From NCBI GenBank assembly GCA_014169315.1, contig AP022133.1:62001-126000 (forward strand): 64,000 bases of DNA, read 5' to 3'. The notes under the pieces are model-generated. The model searched no databases, had not been told where the DNA came from, and was given only the letters and a program-made list of their open reading frames with translations. This DNA is from Enterobacter cloacae. GTDB lineage: Bacteria; Pseudomonadota; Gammaproteobacteria; Enterobacterales; Enterobacteriaceae. Each line of letters starts with the position of its first letter. Position 1 is the first letter of the stretch. The position numbers were made by a program, and so were the translations under genes. Positions 3,910 through 62,074 of the stretch are shown here, one piece after another.

Positions 3910-4599
3910 TTATCCTGCGTACTGCATGGTAGACCACCACTCTGCATCGGCTTCGATTTCGCCCTGCGCATTGACGTGGGGGTAAGGTAATTTTTTCTGC
4001 TTCGCGACGCGAGCCAGTACGGGATAACCGCCTTCAAACAGCAGGCGCTGTTGTTCGTCTTCCGGCAGCATACTGTTGCTGCGCTCGTACATCCCGGCGT
4101 TCTGACGCTGGCGCTGCGCTTCATACAAGATGAGCGCAGAGGCGACGGATACGTTCAGGGATTGCACCATACCGATCATCGGGATGATGATGTCCTGATC
4201 TGCCAGCTCCAGCGCTTCCTGAGTGATCCCGGTTTTTTCCTGACCCATCAAAATGCAGGTCGGGCGGGTATAGTCGATCTCACGGAAATCCACGGCTTTG
4301 TCGGAAAGGTGGGTTGCAAGAACCTGCATACCGCGATCTTTCAGATGTGATACCGCTTCACCGATGGTTTGATGGCTTTTGACAGAAACCCAGCTGTTAC
4401 TGCCCGCAGCGGCGGACACCATCGTACGCATGCGAGTGCCCGTCCAGACGGCGTGGACTTCATGCACGCCGACGGCGTCTGCGGTACGGACAATAGCAGA
4501 GACGTTATGAGGTTTATGGACCTGCTCCATGCAGACTGTCAGGTCAGGCTGACGCCTGGCGAGCATTTCGCAGATCCGCTCGTAACGTTTTGAATTCAT
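3910..4599 (-). CDS. trmH: tRNA (guanosine-18-2'-O)-methyltransferase TrmH
   Basis: SPOUT-class enzyme that methylates the 2'-OH of G18 in the D-loop of tRNA. The start is set at 4599 (MNSKRYERICEM), giving 229 aa, the E. coli length; the open frame extends 29 codons further upstream but those residues do not belong to the family. SPOUT motif 1 is HNVSAIVRTADAVG (N32, R38), motif 2 is ILMGQEKTGIT and motif 3 is MVQSLNVSVASALILYE, together forming the knotted SAM site. It lies 4 bp after spoT and 3 bp before recG in one transcription unit. Confidence 0.96.
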   Translation of the reverse strand: MNSKRYERICEMLARRQPDLTVCMEQVHKPHNVSAIVRTADAVGVHEVHAVWTGTRMRTMVSAAAGSNSWVSVKSHQTIGEAVSHLKDRGMQVLATHLSDKAVDFREIDYTRPTCILMGQEKTGITQEALELADQDIIIPMIGMVQSLNVSVASALILYEAQRQRQNAGMYERSNSMLPEDEQQRLLFEGGYPVLARVAKQKKLPYPHVNAQGEIEADAEWWSTMQYAG

Positions 4600-4603
4600 T
4601 AAT

Positions 4604-6718
4604 CTAGTTTCGGTTTCGGGTGACTTTGATAACATCCGGCATGACGCGGATCTTGCGCATAATGTTCGCCAGATGCACGCGGTCACGGGCGGTCAGACGA
4701 ATAAAGGCGCTGTACACGCGGCCATCTTTTTCTTCCGTGTTCAGGCTCTGAATATTGGAAGACGCCGTATTGATTGCCGCCGTCAGGTTCGCCAGCGCAC
4801 CCTGGTGGTTGAACATATCCACCTTAATTTCGGCGATAAATTCCTGCGCTGTCTCTTTATCCCACTCGACCGCCATAAACTTCTCAGGCTCTTTCTGGTA
4901 GCCACGGATGTTACGACAGGACTCGTGGTGAATAACCAGACCTTTGCCTGGGCTGACGTGCGCAATAATTGGGTCACCAGGAATTGGACGGCAACATTTT
5001 GCGAAGGTGATAAGCACCCCGTCCGCGCCTTTTATCGGCAGGTGGCCGTGGCCTGGTGTTGTTGTCGGAACCGCAGAGGTATCGCCCTGTTGCAGGTTCT
5101 TCGCCACCACCACGCTCATGGCGTTGCCGAGGCCAATCTCTGCCAGCAGATCATCAAGCGAAGCGAGCTTCATACGCTCCAGCTCACGCTGGATGTTTTC
5201 TTTCGGGATTTCAGCCAGCTTACGGCTACCACCCAACGCGTGGTTGAGCAGGCGGCGTCCCAGACTGACGGAGTCATCACGCTTGAGGTTTTTCAGCAAC
5301 TGACGGATTTTAGCGCGCGCTTTGGAGCTCACGACAAAGTTCAGCCAGGCCGCGTTCGGACGTGCGCCCGGTGCGGTAATAATTTCCACCGTCTGACCGC
5401 TGGAGAGCGGCTGAGACAACGGATAAGGCTGTCTGTCGACGCGCGCACCCACGCAGGCATGGCCGATATCGGTATGCACGGCGTAAGCGAAGTCGACCGG
5501 TGTAGCACCCGCAGGCAGTTCGACAATGCGCCCTTCTGGGGTGAAAACGTAAATCTCATCCGGGAAGAGATCGGATTTAACGCTCTCGATAAATTCAAAC
5601 GAGCTACCCGCACTCTGCTGCAGCTCCAGCAGGCTTTGCATCCAGCGCTGGGCGCGGATTTGTGCAGTAGTGCTGCTTTCGCTACCGTGCTCTTTATAAG
5701 CCCAGTGCGCTGCGACACCCATCTCTGCCATCTGGTCCATGTCTTCGGTGCGGATTTGCACCTCAACAGGCACGCCGTGTGGCCCGATCATCGAGGTATG
5801 CAAAGATTGATAGCCGTTCGCTTTTGGAATGGCGATGTAATCTTTAACGCGCCCCGGACGCGGTTTATACAGGCTGTGCATCTGGCCCAACACGCGATAA
5901 CAGGTATCGGCGTCATGAACAACCACGCGGAATGCGTAGATATCCATAATCGAATGGAAACGCTGCTCTTTGAGCACCATTTTGCAGTAGATGGAGTACA
6001 GATGTTTTTCGCGACCGCTGACGCGGCACGGAATTCCCGCTTCCTGTAAACGCCCTTCGATTTCAGAGAGGATCTTTTGAATCATCTCTTTGCGGTTACC
6101 ACGTGCGGCTTTCACCACCTCTTTAATCACGCGATAGCGGTTCGGGTACAACGCTTCAAAACCCAGCTCTTCCAGCTCGGTTTTAATGTGATGGATACCT
6201 AAACGGTGCGCCAGCGGACTGTAGATTTCGAGGGTTTCACGGGCAATGCGGCGACGTTTATCCGGGCGAAGTGAGCCCAGCGTGCGCATGTTGTGGGTAC
6301 GGTCAGCGAGTTTGATGAGAATGACGCGGATATCCTGCACCATCGCCATAATCATCTTGCGGAAGTTTTCGGCTTGCGCCTCTTTCTTGTCGCGGAAATT
6401 CAGCTTATCAAGCTTAGAGACCCCTTCCACCAGTTCGGCAACGCTTTTGCCAAACAGCTGTTCCATGTCCTGATAGGTGGCGGGGGTATCTTCAATCACG
6501 TCATGCAGCAGGGCAGCCATCAGCGTTTCGTAGTCGAGTTTCATCTCGGCCAGAATACAGGCCACCGCTACCGGGTGCGTGATATAGGGTTCACCGCTTG
6601 AACGTGTCTGGCCCTCGTGAGCGTCACGTGCAACGAGATACGCCTGCTGGAGACGCTTAATCTGGTCTTCCGGCAGGTAGTGTTGAATCAGTTGATTCAG
6701 GCTTTCAAACAGATACAA
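4604..6718 (-). CDS. spoT: Bifunctional (p)ppGpp synthetase/hydrolase SpoT
   Basis: Stringent-response enzyme that hydrolyses and weakly synthesises (p)ppGpp. 704 aa, two residues longer than I recall for E. coli SpoT. The N-terminal HD hydrolase domain is intact (H48, with H72-D73 in LLHDVIEDT). The RelA/SpoT synthetase domain follows (about 200-370; RVKDYIAIPKANGYQSLHT), then a TGS domain at about 385-450 (VFTPEGRIVELPAGATPVDF) and a C-terminal ACT domain ending at VTRNRN. It sits between rpoZ and trmH, the conserved enterobacterial order. Confidence 0.97.
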   Translation of the reverse strand: MYLFESLNQLIQHYLPEDQIKRLQQAYLVARDAHEGQTRSSGEPYITHPVAVACILAEMKLDYETLMAALLHDVIEDTPATYQDMEQLFGKSVAELVEGVSKLDKLNFRDKKEAQAENFRKMIMAMVQDIRVILIKLADRTHNMRTLGSLRPDKRRRIARETLEIYSPLAHRLGIHHIKTELEELGFEALYPNRYRVIKEVVKAARGNRKEMIQKILSEIEGRLQEAGIPCRVSGREKHLYSIYCKMVLKEQRFHSIMDIYAFRVVVHDADTCYRVLGQMHSLYKPRPGRVKDYIAIPKANGYQSLHTSMIGPHGVPVEVQIRTEDMDQMAEMGVAAHWAYKEHGSESSTTAQIRAQRWMQSLLELQQSAGSSFEFIESVKSDLFPDEIYVFTPEGRIVELPAGATPVDFAYAVHTDIGHACVGARVDRQPYPLSQPLSSGQTVEIITAPGARPNAAWLNFVVSSKARAKIRQLLKNLKRDDSVSLGRRLLNHALGGSRKLAEIPKENIQRELERMKLASLDDLLAEIGLGNAMSVVVAKNLQQGDTSAVPTTTPGHGHLPIKGADGVLITFAKCCRPIPGDPIIAHVSPGKGLVIHHESCRNIRGYQKEPEKFMAVEWDKETAQEFIAEIKVDMFNHQGALANLTAAINTASSNIQSLNTEEKDGRVYSAFIRLTARDRVHLANIMRKIRVMPDVIKVTRNRN

Positions 6719-12581: not shown

Positions 12582-12702
12582 GGTATTTTGAGGTGCTGCC
12601 TTTGGCTGCTCATTTTATGCTCTCATGCTTGCTGTTCTGGCCTCTTATCTTTTGCGCCTTATTGTATGATACCTCTATCCCACAATAAGGAATCAGCCAG
12701 CC

Positions 12703-13062
12703 ATGAGAATGACCAGCCGAAAAAAAGAGATACTCAGCTACTTTGAGCCGGATAACCTCGAATGGGTGACGGGTGAGATTGGCGCTCCTCCGTTCGATGT
12801 CTCGGGCGTGGCGTACCTGCTTCACGGCATGGGGTCGTTCGATAAGCGCCACCCGCTAGAATCAACCCGGCGAACTCTTGAAAGCATGGTTGCTGGTGGG
12901 TTGCTTGAGCGGGTGACAGTGTACGAATCCCGGCAGGTAAAGCGTGGCGGTGAAACTAGCGCAACGGTCGTGCGCTACGGTTTACCCGGTCAGTGTGCCG
13001 TTGTGCGCGATAATGGCGGCGCTGATAAAGCGATTGATGGGGAATGCGAGCGGGTTGGCTGA
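12703..13062 (+). CDS. Small winged-helix-like satellite protein
   Basis: 119 aa, the only satellite gene on the plus strand, reading inward from the left attachment repeat. An AAGGA sequence precedes the start, and a TATGAT -10-like box lies 33 bp upstream. The layout MTSRKKEILSYF, a middle segment, then RRTLESMVAGGLLERV and a basic beta-hairpin-like stretch (ESRQVKRGG) suggests a winged helix: recognition helix plus wing. A second start at 12709 is possible. The function is unknown; a DNA-binding regulator is a reasonable guess. Confidence 0.6.
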   Translation: MRMTSRKKEILSYFEPDNLEWVTGEIGAPPFDVSGVAYLLHGMGSFDKRHPLESTRRTLESMVAGGLLERVTVYESRQVKRGGETSATVVRYGLPGQCAVVRDNGGADKAIDGECERVG

Positions 13063-13217
13063 GTCGAACGGGGCAGGGCGGAATAGATAAAAAAACATAT
13101 GACGGGTTAATCTGCGTACTGGATTCAAGCCCTTATCTGGCGCGGATCTCTCTTCATATTGGCTTTGAGTCCGTCCAGTACAGTCCAGTATTTCAACATT
13201 GGTGACTATACGGATTG

Positions 13218-13595
13218 CTAACATGCGCCGCTTTTTTTAACCCTTCGCAGATCCCGCCTTGCTTGCATTGAAACGGATCTCGCTAATCTCAGCTCAAGCC
13301 GTGCGATTCTGTCGGCATGTAGCCCCATGAGTCCGTTAATCAATGTCATCTCGCGCCATTCTTCTGTTCCCGGCGTCGGATTAGTCGCCAGTAATAGCCC
13401 GTATCTCTCAGCCAGCATGAGGTTTCTTGCACGATTTCGCACCAGCGGAGAAAGCGCCTCTCCTCCCTCAAATGGGAAGAATGCCCGCCGACTGCGTTCG
13501 CCATGCTTGACGGCATTAGTATTGCCCAATGGTGCGCCTGCGCCTTTCCGCTTGCCACCCCATCCCGATCTTGATTGTTGGCTATTTTTTTTCAT
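13218..13595 (-). CDS. Satellite protein with GGKRKGAGAPLGN N-terminus (terminase-small-subunit-like?)
   Basis: 125 aa, last gene of the leftward satellite run. The basic glycine-rich opening GWGGKRKGAGAPLGNTNAVK resembles the N-terminal motif found in many phage small terminase or terminase-associated proteins, but I cannot align the rest. The second half is helical and arginine-rich (LRLARSVSMQARRDLRRVK). If the resemblance holds, it could act in redirecting helper packaging, but this is a guess from one motif. A separate AT-rich gap of about 370 bp precedes it. Confidence 0.6.
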   Translation of the reverse strand: MKKNSQQSRSGWGGKRKGAGAPLGNTNAVKHGERSRRAFFPFEGGEALSPLVRNRARNLMLAERYGLLLATNPTPGTEEWREMTLINGLMGLHADRIARLELRLARSVSMQARRDLRRVKKSGAC

Positions 13596-13674
13596 TTAAC
13601 GGCTCACTGTGCGCAAAAACCTTAACAAGCCCTAACAATACCTTAATAAAACTGTATATCTAACTTCCGCCATC

Positions 13675-13840
13675 TACTGCGAACGGATAGCGCCCAAGCC
13701 AGAAATATCAAGCCTCTCCACCATTTTGCGAATGAGCAATTCGCGCTTAGAAATTACTGCGAATTCGCAGTTAGCATTCGTCAGGTAGTACGCACGCTGA
13801 ATGCGCAGTTTTGCCGCGTACCTGACTGCGTACTGCGAAC
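13675..13840. repeat. Repeat cluster with ACTGCGAA boxes in a gene-free gap
   Basis: The gap 13596-13967 holds no convincing gene. It contains two identical 10-mers, TACTGCGAAC, at 13675-13684 and 13831-13840, and between them a perfect 16 bp palindrome, ACTGCGAATTCGCAGT, at 13756-13771, whose half-site is the same ACTGCGAA box. Further partial matches (TTGCGAAT, TGCGCAGTT) lie around it. This looks like a multi-site protein-binding region: an operator for the gene at 13218-13595, or a second replication site comparable to crr in phage P4. Confidence 0.55.
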
Positions 13841-13967
13841 CAGTGGCGCGAACCAGAATATTTTGGACAACCTAAATCACGTTCTGGCTTCCAGCCCACG
13901 ACTGGCGCGGGTTTAGCGCTACGAGGGTTTAAAATCTGTCAAGAACAGTCCAGAATTTACAGCCTTT

Positions 13968-14291
13968 TTAGTGCGAACATTGCTGCGAGCTGTCGCCCCC
14001 GCTGGTGGTCTGTCGTTGCTTCTTACCGCCATTTAACCGGAAGGCGTTACCGTTCGGTTGCGCTATCCCCATGCGGTGTTGCGTTTCGGTAACAGCTTTA
14101 TGCAGGTCGCCAAAGTCCTCAACCTTCACGGGCGGTCGCTTCACATTTGTCAGACACGTATCACGTCGCTGCTTTACCCATTCCCGATCATCGTCCTCAG
14201 CACAAAGCATCATGACTTCCTGCCAGCGCGTCGCAGCCCTGCGATACAGCCCCTTTGCTTCCAGAGCCTCTGCTTTACTATCGTTGACCAT
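13968..14291 (-). CDS. PerC-family regulator-like protein
   Basis: 107 aa. The N-terminal half (KAEALEAKGLYRRAATRWQE, followed by RDTC) matches the PerC family, small phage- and plasmid-borne proteins that include transcriptional activators of virulence genes in EPEC and EHEC. The C-terminal half is polar and probably disordered (KKQRQTTSGGDSSQQCSH). It starts 11 bp after the ssb stop, so it is probably in the same transcript. Its target here is unknown. Confidence 0.72.
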   Translation of the reverse strand: MVNDSKAEALEAKGLYRRAATRWQEVMMLCAEDDDREWVKQRRDTCLTNVKRPPVKVEDFGDLHKAVTETQHRMGIAQPNGNAFRLNGGKKQRQTTSGGDSSQQCSH

Positions 14292-59696: not shown

Positions 59697-60059
59697 TCAG
59701 AACGCCGTCTTACAAAAACCCGTCATCTCTTTCAGGCCCATTTCACGGCCAAGTTCGGTCATCGGGTGCACCACCACCAGGCCACGGACGCTTTTCTTCA
59801 GCTTGCCCATGTCAGCCTGCTCTTTTTTGGTGATCGCGCGGCGGTGCGGCATGTTCATCAGCTTCTGGGCTTCTTTGCTCAGCTTCTGGCCTTTAACTTC
59901 GCGCAGACGTTCGATTTCTGTTTCGAGCGTGGCTGTCTCTTTTTCGAGCTCAGCGTACTTTTCAGCGGAATCGATAAGTGACAGACCAGCCATCTGGTGG
60001 CGGATCAGATCCAGGCGGTCGCTCAGGCGTTTAATTTCGTTCTTTTCGACTTCTTTCAT
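59697..60059 (-). CDS. yibL: YibL family ribosome-associated protein
   Basis: 120 aa. A helical, charged first half ([20 protein letters not shown], then a Glu/Lys-rich coiled coil) is followed by [20 protein letters not shown] and [18 protein letters not shown]. It matches E. coli YibL, reported to co-sediment with ribosomal subunits; its exact role is unknown. In E. coli it follows mtlR, whose remnant is just upstream here. Confidence 0.9.
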
Positions 60060-60117: not shown

Positions 60118-60258
60118 TTACTTCTGAAACGCTTTTTTTAAGCTGATTCGGGAAATCAGCTCTGTCAGGGAAAGCACCATAGTGGATCTGACAACCTGTT
60201 GATAACGAAGCTTTTGCATCGCGTACAGTTCAGGATCGCTGTTATCAAAATGCGGTGC
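60118..60258 (-). pseudogene. mtlR: mtlR, 3' remnant (46 codons)
   Basis: Reverse-strand reading ends ELYAMQKLRYQQVVRSTMVL, then SLTELISRISLKKAFQK and stop, which is the C-terminus of the mannitol operon repressor MtlR with very few changes from E. coli. Homology begins at about APHFDNSDPE (60258) and is lost upstream, where the IS91-type element starts. About three quarters of the gene is missing, so no functional MtlR is encoded here. Confidence 0.9.
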
Positions 60259-60429
60259 ACGTATAGGAAATTGAAAAACCAGTCGATACCATTGTCCACG
60301 CCTTATGCCACGTGAGCCTTTCTGCTTTTCCCACCACTCCGGTGGTTTCCCTCTCTGTATGGTCGATTTTTATACCGTAACAGGCTGTTTTTTATACTTT
60401 CACCGATTCCCGGGCACACTTAGCCTGTG

Positions 60430-61629
60430 TCAGGCCGGCATATACCTCAGTAGACTGATATCCCGCGCGTTTTTCTTCAGCCCTGATACATTCAGCCCCG
60501 CAATGGCCCGGCGGTATACCATCCGGCAGCCACACAGCACGCATTCGAACGGGTCACGACTCAGGAACTGTTTCACCATTTGTGCATAGCACACTTTCGC
60601 CACTGGTTCCGGTTTATCCATCCCCAGTGCACGGTACACCTGCGGCAGCTTCTCTCCACACACACGGTTGGCAAGGAACCCGAAGTACCTCACCATCTTA
60701 AAAAACTTCTCCGGGATGTGCTGTTTCAGCCTCGCGACCAGCTCACGCTGTGTCAGCGTTTCCGTCGCCGTTTCTCCCGTTTTGTGGTCCAGGTAACGGA
60801 AGCTCAGGCTTGCCCCTCCGTTGTAATGAGCCAGTCGGGAAGCCGCTATTGGTGGCTTCTTCAGATAACGACCCAGGTAGCGTGCCGTATTCCGCCCTCC
60901 GGCTGTCTTCTTCGACATGTACACATGCCAGTATTTTCCGCCGGATTTCAGCACCAGGCTTCTCCACTGTGATTCCGTCGTGATATGTGACAACGACTCC
61001 GGCATTGCCATCCCCTCTGACCACGCTTTCAGAAGCAGCTGCCGCATATTCCACATCCACCGTGAACGCATCGCGTCTTTCAGGAAGCTCAGCTTTTTCC
61101 ACTGACCATGCTTATTCAGACCTCCACAGGTTACAGACACATGTACATGCGGATGCCAGTTGAGACGACGGCCATACGTGTGGATGGCGCAGAAGATACC
61201 GGGTTCCAGCCCCCGTTTTCGGGCGGCATACAGCAGATTCTCCACCGCCAGACGGCACACGTCATTCAGCAGCCAGCGGTTGCTTTCGAACACCGGCCAC
61301 AGCGTGTCCGGCAGGGTGAAGACCAGATGTACCCAGTCGCAGTCAGGAAGACGATTCAGCTGTGTTGCTGTCCACAGGTCTGTGGCCTTCTTTCCGCAGG
61401 ACGGGCAGGCACGGCTGCCGCATGAGTTGGTCAGGTACTTTACGTGCTGACAGTCCGGGTTATCACACCCGAACTCTTTTACACCCAGTATCCGTGTGCC
61501 GCAGGCCAGCATTTTGGTGACGGCTTCAACCTCGATATCGCGCAGACCGCCCGCATCCAGGAAGGACGTCCAGCACTGGTTGGCTGTGAACAGACGTTTC
61601 AGAGGGCGGGGAGTAAAACCGGACAACAT
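60430..61629 (-). CDS. IS91-family transposase (HUH, Y2 type)
   Basis: 399 aa. The N-terminal zinc-binding region has CDNPDCQHVKYLTNSCGSRA, then CPSCGKKA. The catalytic HUH motif is HPHVHV (in RRLNWHPHVHVSVTCGG), and the two tyrosines occur in ARYLGRYLKKP, as in IS91 rolling-circle enzymes. The C-terminal region with CVLCGCRMVYRR completes the family pattern. The gene looks intact. It reads from the selA side towards mtlR. Confidence 0.9.
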   Translation of the reverse strand: MLSGFTPRPLKRLFTANQCWTSFLDAGGLRDIEVEAVTKMLACGTRILGVKEFGCDNPDCQHVKYLTNSCGSRACPSCGKKATDLWTATQLNRLPDCDWVHLVFTLPDTLWPVFESNRWLLNDVCRLAVENLLYAARKRGLEPGIFCAIHTYGRRLNWHPHVHVSVTCGGLNKHGQWKKLSFLKDAMRSRWMWNMRQLLLKAWSEGMAMPESLSHITTESQWRSLVLKSGGKYWHVYMSKKTAGGRNTARYLGRYLKKPPIAASRLAHYNGGASLSFRYLDHKTGETATETLTQRELVARLKQHIPEKFFKMVRYFGFLANRVCGEKLPQVYRALGMDKPEPVAKVCYAQMVKQFLSRDPFECVLCGCRMVYRRAIAGLNVSGLKKNARDISLLRYMPA

Positions 61630-61638
61630 GAGGATGGA

Positions 61639-61827
61639 TTAAACCCCGGTATCCTGTAGCAGGGTAAGGGCTGCTGTATCGCCACGGCGCTTCAGGATGG
61701 AGGTCGTCACCATCGCAGGTGGTGGGTCCATGGGTTTGAGCATTTTCATCCAGTCCCATTCTCGTTGTGAGAGCTTCTCAGCACCAACAGAGAGCAGAAC
61801 TGTATCGATACTTTTGCGGGTCAACAT
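61639..61827 (-). CDS. Small gene upstream of the IS91-type transposase
   Basis: 62 aa (MLTRKSIDTVLLSVGAEKLS ... TLLQDTGV), 9 bp before the transposase in the same direction. Several IS91-family elements have a small accessory gene in this position. I do not recognise the protein. It contains KLSQREWDWMKMLKPMDPPP and could be a DNA-binding or regulatory partner. Confidence 0.55.
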   Translation of the reverse strand: MLTRKSIDTVLLSVGAEKLSQREWDWMKMLKPMDPPPAMVTTSILKRRGDTAALTLLQDTGV

Positions 61828-61924
61828 AAGGGGATGAGTCCTTAATAAAACAGGTCCTCAGAGCATACATATTCTGCGGGGCGTGCGGCAACAACAGGAC
61901 GAACCGGGGCGGTTTTCAATTTGC

Positions 61925-62074
61925 AGCCGCCAGGCTGCCGTGGTTCATGCGCTGTCGGCTCGCTGGCGCGCATTGCCGACACCCATTATCGGGCGCATAT
62001 ACGATGGCCGAATGTGGCTGGATTTACGCTGTCTTGAAGATGAAGAGCGATTTCTGGAGATGCTGTTGAAATGA
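61925..62074 (+). pseudogene. selA: selA, 3' remnant (49 codons)
   Basis: Plus-strand reading [20 protein letters not shown], then [20 protein letters not shown] and RFLEMLLK matches the last 49 or so residues of L-seryl-tRNA(Sec) selenium transferase. The full enzyme has about 463 residues, so the active-site region and PLP lysine are gone. Upstream sequence belongs to the IS91-type element. The stop overlaps the selB start (ATGA), as in intact selAB operons. Confidence 0.9.

Follow-up and report, generated by a model that had tools for sequence, protein, structure and literature searches.

The 64,000-base window analyzed here (C1:62001-126000 of a 4,998,275-base genome in 6 contigs, with a completeness of 100 and a contamination of 0.03) carries an insertion sequence (IS) set between the last part of mtlR and the last part of selA, which raises the question of how two truncated genes came to lie on either side of one mobile element, and what the host has lost with the rest of them. 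The scar was read from the assembled contigs. With a probability of about 0.9, we suggest that IS1294 inserted in selA at a CTTG target and that an IS1294-dependent event then deleted the DNA outward from the oriIS end of the element into mtlR. We infer this order of events, and the agency of either the transposase or recombination between IS copies, from the junctions, the relatives, and the other copies of the element described below.

Features of the scar and its flanks (positions are those of the window; a slash marks a junction)
Feature	Position	Strand	Remarks
yibL, intact	59697..60059	-	120-aa ORF, left of scar
mtlR remnant, last 46 codons and stop	60118..60258	-	MtlR family match
GTGC at oriIS junction	60255..60258	+	mtlR sequence, one base off GTTC target
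IS1294 (IS91 family), 1688 bp	60259..61946	-	oriIS end 60259, terIS end 61946
IS91-family transposase, 399 aa	60430..61629	-	zinc-binding and Y2_Tnp domains
62-aa accessory ORF of the element	61639..61827	-	hypothetical protein in annotation of other copies
selA remnant, last 41 whole codons and stop	61947..62074	+	relatives' empty site CTTG/A
selB, intact, 618 aa	62071..63927	+	TIGR00475, 849.7 bits

The first-pass annotation had placed an IS91-type element at this site, and the element is indeed a complete copy with an IS91 transposase match, which can be refined to IS1294. Compared with eight annotated copies, seven on plasmids and one on a record labelled chromosome, the shared sequence spans ACGTATAGG (60259) to GCCGTGGTTC (61946), i.e., 1688 bases, and this length and both ends are common to 14 other copies, the eight annotated ones and six further ones. 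When 13 copies were compared base by base (L159 was left out), the element showed no difference from 11 and a single difference from 2, and plasmids of E. coli and Klebsiella carry copies with the identical sequence. The transposase matches the NCBIfam IS91 transposase model NF033538 with 309.6 bits (cut-off, 125) and carries the Pfam domains Y2_Tnp (PF04986) and Zn_Tnp_IS91 (PF14319). Its ORF is unbroken, and the protein is identical to that of 12 of the 13 compared copies. For the accessory ORF, searches with the NCBIfam and Pfam profiles gave no match. The annotated records read "IS91 family transposase"; the element is probably IS1294, a name given from its target behavior and from its length, since we take 1688 bp to be the length of IS1294. 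According to the accessible text of the source, IS1294 has no inverted repeats at its termini, generates no direct repeats, and has a target preference for GTTC or CTTG (PMC6052338). The host genome contains one copy. In a survey of 61 genomes of the genus, in which the best 5 candidates per genome were scored, a full-length IS1294 was present in 1 genome, the host's own, with partial matches at 66 to 77% in 8 others. The single-stranded folding of the IS ends (terIS, z = -1.59; oriIS, z = +0.54) was not informative, and a scan of viral contigs with the oriIS end gave 2 loci.

To the left of the element, the gene that is presumably yibL and the tail of mtlR are collinear with the relatives at 84 to 93% identity (rows L030-L044 and L050-L068), and this collinearity ends at 60258/60259, where the oriIS end adjoins the mtlR remnant. 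To the right, where the terIS end adjoins the selA remnant, homology with the relatives picks up again at about 61949. The junctions were aligned in 34 of 95 relative loci (the same rows), some of which are the same genome under two identifiers, L031 and L032 coming from the two ends of a single genome. At the 60259 junction, the ambiguity does not exceed one base. The earlier reading of 46 final mtlR codons on the minus strand, cut at the element, is confirmed by the reading frame and by the relatives; its count of 49 remaining selA codons was too high, as the actual number is 41 and the other eight or so codons are IS sequence.

The target sequences at the two junctions give the event a direction. 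In the relatives, the tetranucleotide immediately preceding the retained part of selA is CTTG in 29/33 rows (CTCG in 3 and CTGG in 1), and the one at the mtlR junction is GNGC in 32/32 rows, GTGC in 8 of them, and GTTC or CTTG in none. Next to oriIS, where a GTTC or CTTG target is looked for, the present flank is GTGC, and the CTTG of the empty site belongs to the terIS side. Because a canonical CTTG stands at the empty site of selA and GTGC at the mtlR end, the junctions argue for an insertion in selA with loss outward from oriIS. Judged from these sequences, it was most likely selA that the element first entered, with the terIS side as the original junction and the oriIS side replaced. This polarity of the deletion, outward from oriIS to a near-cognate site, is the new point here.

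The missing segment was sized by alignment to relatives. By SelB, the closest named relatives are Enterobacter, Lelliottia, and their neighbors, a list from which records of the host's own genome were possibly left out. On this basis the host is called an Enterobacter, and we infer the ancestral state from relatives in the genus that are 78 to 86% identical in selB DNA. In 13 loci of the genus (rows L030 and L033-L044; a fourteenth, from G010, runs across a contig end and was left out), the stretch between the scar points is 6.0 to 6.1 kb long in 3 and 7.8 to 8.6 kb long in 10. Each of the 13 carries mtlR, mtlD, mtlA, yibF, and selA, with selA broken in frame in L038, and 10 of them also hold a pair of genes that are presumably yibI and yibH, encoding a protein of 118 aa that matched no NCBIfam model and one that is periplasmic-adaptor-like; in two of the 10 (L037 and L043), the match to one member of the pair is partial. 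The claim of the first-pass annotation that mtlA, mtlD, most of mtlR, and most of selA were deleted is thus borne out by the relatives as well as by searches of the whole genome, and yibF, and possibly yibIH, were lost along with them.

Family searches found no intact selA, mtlA, or mtlD on any of the 6 contigs of the genome, mtlA giving no match, so that a translocation or inversion in place of a deletion was not found. Several candidates for the lost genes were rejected. A second SelA-family match might have been a spare selA, and the protein is a DgaE-family ammonia lyase. Three Mannitol_dh_C proteins were considered as mtlD, and their best fits were fructuronate reductase (twice) and tagaturonate reductase (once, assigned from a 198-residue piece below that model's cut-off). 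A move of the locus to a plasmid was also rejected: the mtlR pieces on the 74-kb contig C3 are foreign, being 94% and 86% identical to Pseudocitrobacter vendiensis and only 73% and 90% identical, over 89 and 60 bases, to the mtlR remnant of the scar, and C3 has no match to mtlA or mtlD. On this plasmid-like contig (G000, 74,230 bases), the mtlR pieces lie far apart, at L026:4957-5487 and C3:71835-71894 (in L029), with one of them between two IS26-like ORFs (4241-4963 and 5460-6182); P. vendiensis is their closest match among the loci compared. C3:63511-67385 contains ORFs that by eye resemble genes of capsule export and regulation (tyrosine kinase, phosphatase, and outer-membrane exporter types) and are flanked by IS5-like transposase ORFs.

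Across the 61 genomes of the genus, the host's own included, mtlA scored above the cut-off in 59, the host being the only one without any match; in G060, which is 79% complete, the gene is split over two contigs and falls below the cut-off. Natural absence of the mtl genes is the state of seven Kluyvera loci (L097-L099, L113, L119, L121, and L125), which have no mtlADR between yibL and selA and keep selA. However, it was rejected for the host genus and fails to explain the scar, because all 60 other genus genomes have an mtlA match. A second, shorter mtlA-like permease, with an open frame of 463 to 484 aa, occurs elsewhere in 9 of the 61 genomes (G009, G015, G017, G042, G046, G049, G066, G070, and G071). 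For selA, 58 of the 61 have a full-length match, two have the gene in pieces, and the host has the remnant only. The pieces are in different frames in G007 (the locus L038, about 12600-14200) and G034 (G034:C1:164481-165752). As selA is broken in these two other members, its inactivation may recur in the genus, sequencing error being an alternative for both.

We propose the following course of events. A plasmid-type copy of IS1294 would recently have entered a CTTG close to the 3' end of selA, its oriIS end turned toward the 5' part of the gene. A later IS1294-dependent event, or the same one, would have removed everything outward from the oriIS end, namely the larger part of selA, yibF (with yibIH, if there was one), mtlA, mtlD, and three quarters of mtlR from its 5' end, and would have stopped after the near-cognate GTGC in mtlR. 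Two features by which IS-mediated adjacent deletion is recognized are found here: the loss starts exactly at the end of an IS that is itself intact, and the undeleted locus is present in relatives. The first-pass annotation had put the loss down to one IS91-associated event; the association of the deletion with the IS stands, and the events may have been one or several, since a one-step route and a route with two insertions leave the same scar.

In a one-step route, the transposase would have made two cuts in one strand, one at oriIS and the other at an upstream GTGC, and joined the ends directly, the intervening strand being lost, which amounts to an adjacent deletion on the oriIS side; we put this a little short of an even chance. 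The cutting rule behind it is one that we assume from the IS91 and IS1294 literature. That rule agrees with the published target, GTTC or CTTG, as given in the accessible text of the source (PMC6052338). The start of the deletion coincides to the base with the oriIS end, and its stop lies 3' of a tetranucleotide that differs from GTTC by one base, which is the position of the element's target; the same polarity is seen in two plasmid copies, L160 and L163. However, in the lost stretch as read from two relatives, about 9% of the positions are within one mismatch of GTTC or CTTG (GTGC itself makes up 0.44 to 0.51%), so that a near-cognate end is only modest evidence for this route, and 33 and 49 canonical sites inside the stretch went unused.

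Alternatively, two IS1294 copies in the same orientation, inserted at GTGC in mtlR and at CTTG in selA, might have undergone homologous recombination and thereby deleted the segment and one of the copies, an explanation that we hold tentatively, at somewhat below even odds. Recombination of this kind yields exactly the scar seen, and in the accessible text of one report, IS1294-IS1294 recombination is proposed for a deletion in a plasmid (PMC6052338). GTGC, GTCC, and GTAC flanks at oriIS exist elsewhere, and among the copies one IS26-GTGC flank at oriIS is paired with either of two terIS flanks, and one terIS flank likewise has two oriIS partners, such swapped pairs being the outcome expected from recombination between copies. 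However, two chromosomal insertions are needed, one of them non-canonical, and the genome now holds one copy. Furthermore, in none of the GTGC contexts read (the scar, L133, L160, L161/L162, and L163) are the flanks contiguous as after a simple insertion, a reading that for L133 and L161/L162 comes from annotation and sequence without an empty site. The one-step deletion by the transposase and the recombination of two copies would leave the same sequence and appear to fit it about equally.

A random illegitimate deletion beside a resident IS1294 is unlikely. A loss of this size can come about by many routes, but a random end would be expected to lie either within the IS or some way off, whereas the IS is intact to its last base at oriIS and the junction leaves one base of play at most. 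An assembly artefact or a collapse around a repeat is highly improbable, given that the missing genes are on none of the 6 contigs and that IS1294 is single-copy in the assembly, and there is therefore no second copy to cause a misjoin.

As regards the preferred reading, an insertion in selA followed by IS1294-dependent loss outward from oriIS to a GTGC, non-canonical flanks of this type are also found in other copies. Among ten copies that were not chosen by flank (L130-L137, L158, and L159), the oriIS flank is GTTC in 5, CTTG in 3, GTCC in 1, and GTGC in 1. A probe with GTGC at oriIS gave at least 60 full-length matches at 100% in each of two collections; in one of them, 59 of the 60 matches listed lie under an IS6-family transposase and represent one widespread IS26-linked context, and the matches in the second show no feature annotation. 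These IS26-linked copies are ambiguous, because native IS26 reads GTGC/ACG and so shares three further bases (ACG) with IS1294. The GTCC probe matched at 100% in 30 of the 40 matches listed and the GTAC probe in at least 12 (12/12 among the matches listed), and the GCTC probe did so in 0/12 among the matches listed, the best of which reached 98% with a one-base gap. Since GTGC, GTCC, and GTAC flanks occur and GCTC was not found at 100% among the matches listed, the third base of the oriIS target seems to be tolerated (GTNC). The copies that bear on this tolerance are L132, L133, and L160-L163, together with the probe matches.

Two plasmid copies outside the IS26 context, L160 and L163 (the latter on an IncX8 plasmid), repeat the polarity of the chromosomal scar; because a GTGC search picked them out, they do not make up an unbiased sample. 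On the oriIS side, both have the native sequence GTGC/TTC, and at the terIS side it is CTTG/ATC for L160 and GTTC/AGG for L163. The terIS flank of L160 starts at the apparent end of an IS91. A relative plasmid has the two flanks of L163 on opposite strands and 3 places that match the right one, and the L163 event is therefore not a plain deletion. The scar, L160, and L163 thus carry one signature, a non-canonical GTNC at oriIS with a canonical GTTC or CTTG in the terIS empty site. It is conceivable, and we consider it rather doubtful, that the IS1294 transposase on its own deletes or rearranges DNA in one direction, starting at oriIS and ending at near-cognate GTNC sites; if this is true, a common plasmid IS would act on bacterial chromosomes as a polar editor. 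As a signature, polarity from oriIS combined with a GTNC end is simple and can be tested in other IS1294 copies.

The consequences for the host concern two traits. Of the complete selenocysteine system, SelB is present and intact (TIGR00475), as are the tRNA-Sec gene selC (C1:53724-53813, above the Rfam threshold) and selD (C1:2838316-2839236), and only SelA is missing. Among 12 molybdopterin-family matches in the genome, three contain one in-frame TGA each, their open frames being 742, 1017, and 1039 aa long, and from their size and family we take them to be FdhF and the FdoG/FdnG pair. Without SelA, the conversion of Ser-tRNA-Sec is impossible, and for this reason the three formate-dehydrogenase-type proteins are predicted to be inactive. 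With no intact selA, mtlA, or mtlD in the genome, selenocysteine synthesis and mannitol uptake through the PTS are both predicted to be lost, and no PTS growth on mannitol would be expected after the loss of mtlA and mtlD. The same losses, with selB left without selA, had been foreseen in the first reading of the locus, and the comparisons with the genome and the relatives bear this out at the level of sequence. The UGA-containing genes, which are still open, and the identity of the IS to present plasmid copies point to a recent event. The locus offers a clear-cut natural example of a single plasmid IS, recently acquired, that is linked to the loss of two unrelated chromosomal traits, and one of them, mannitol use, is a standard identification trait. 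Because the UGA-containing genes and the remaining Sec machinery are still in place, an early stage of the loss of the Sec trait is on view.

Judged by titles and the openings of abstracts, the open-licence literature contained no report of this deletion. The host resembles E. coli selA mutants, which also have SelB, tRNA-Sec, SelD, and UGA-containing genes and are without SelA; unlike in those mutants, the loss of selA is natural and is coupled to the loss of the mannitol operon. By sequence, the element is the same as IS1294/IS1294b on Enterobacteriaceae plasmids, for which GTTC or CTTG targets, the lack of target duplication, and plasmid deletions are described in the accessible text of the source (PMC6052338). 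Unlike those plasmid copies, it is chromosomal, stands beside a several-kilobase loss of core metabolic genes, and has GTGC at oriIS. IS-associated adjacent deletions in general start exactly at one end of the element and stop at a variable distance, which is likewise the case here (PMC9330008, accessible text). However, adjacent deletion is described there, in the same part of the text, for other kinds of IS, whereas the element of the scar is of the Y2 rolling-circle type. We regard the scar as one more instance of the known IS-linked deletion from a chromosome, unusual in the two traits that were lost together, and not as a new kind of system.
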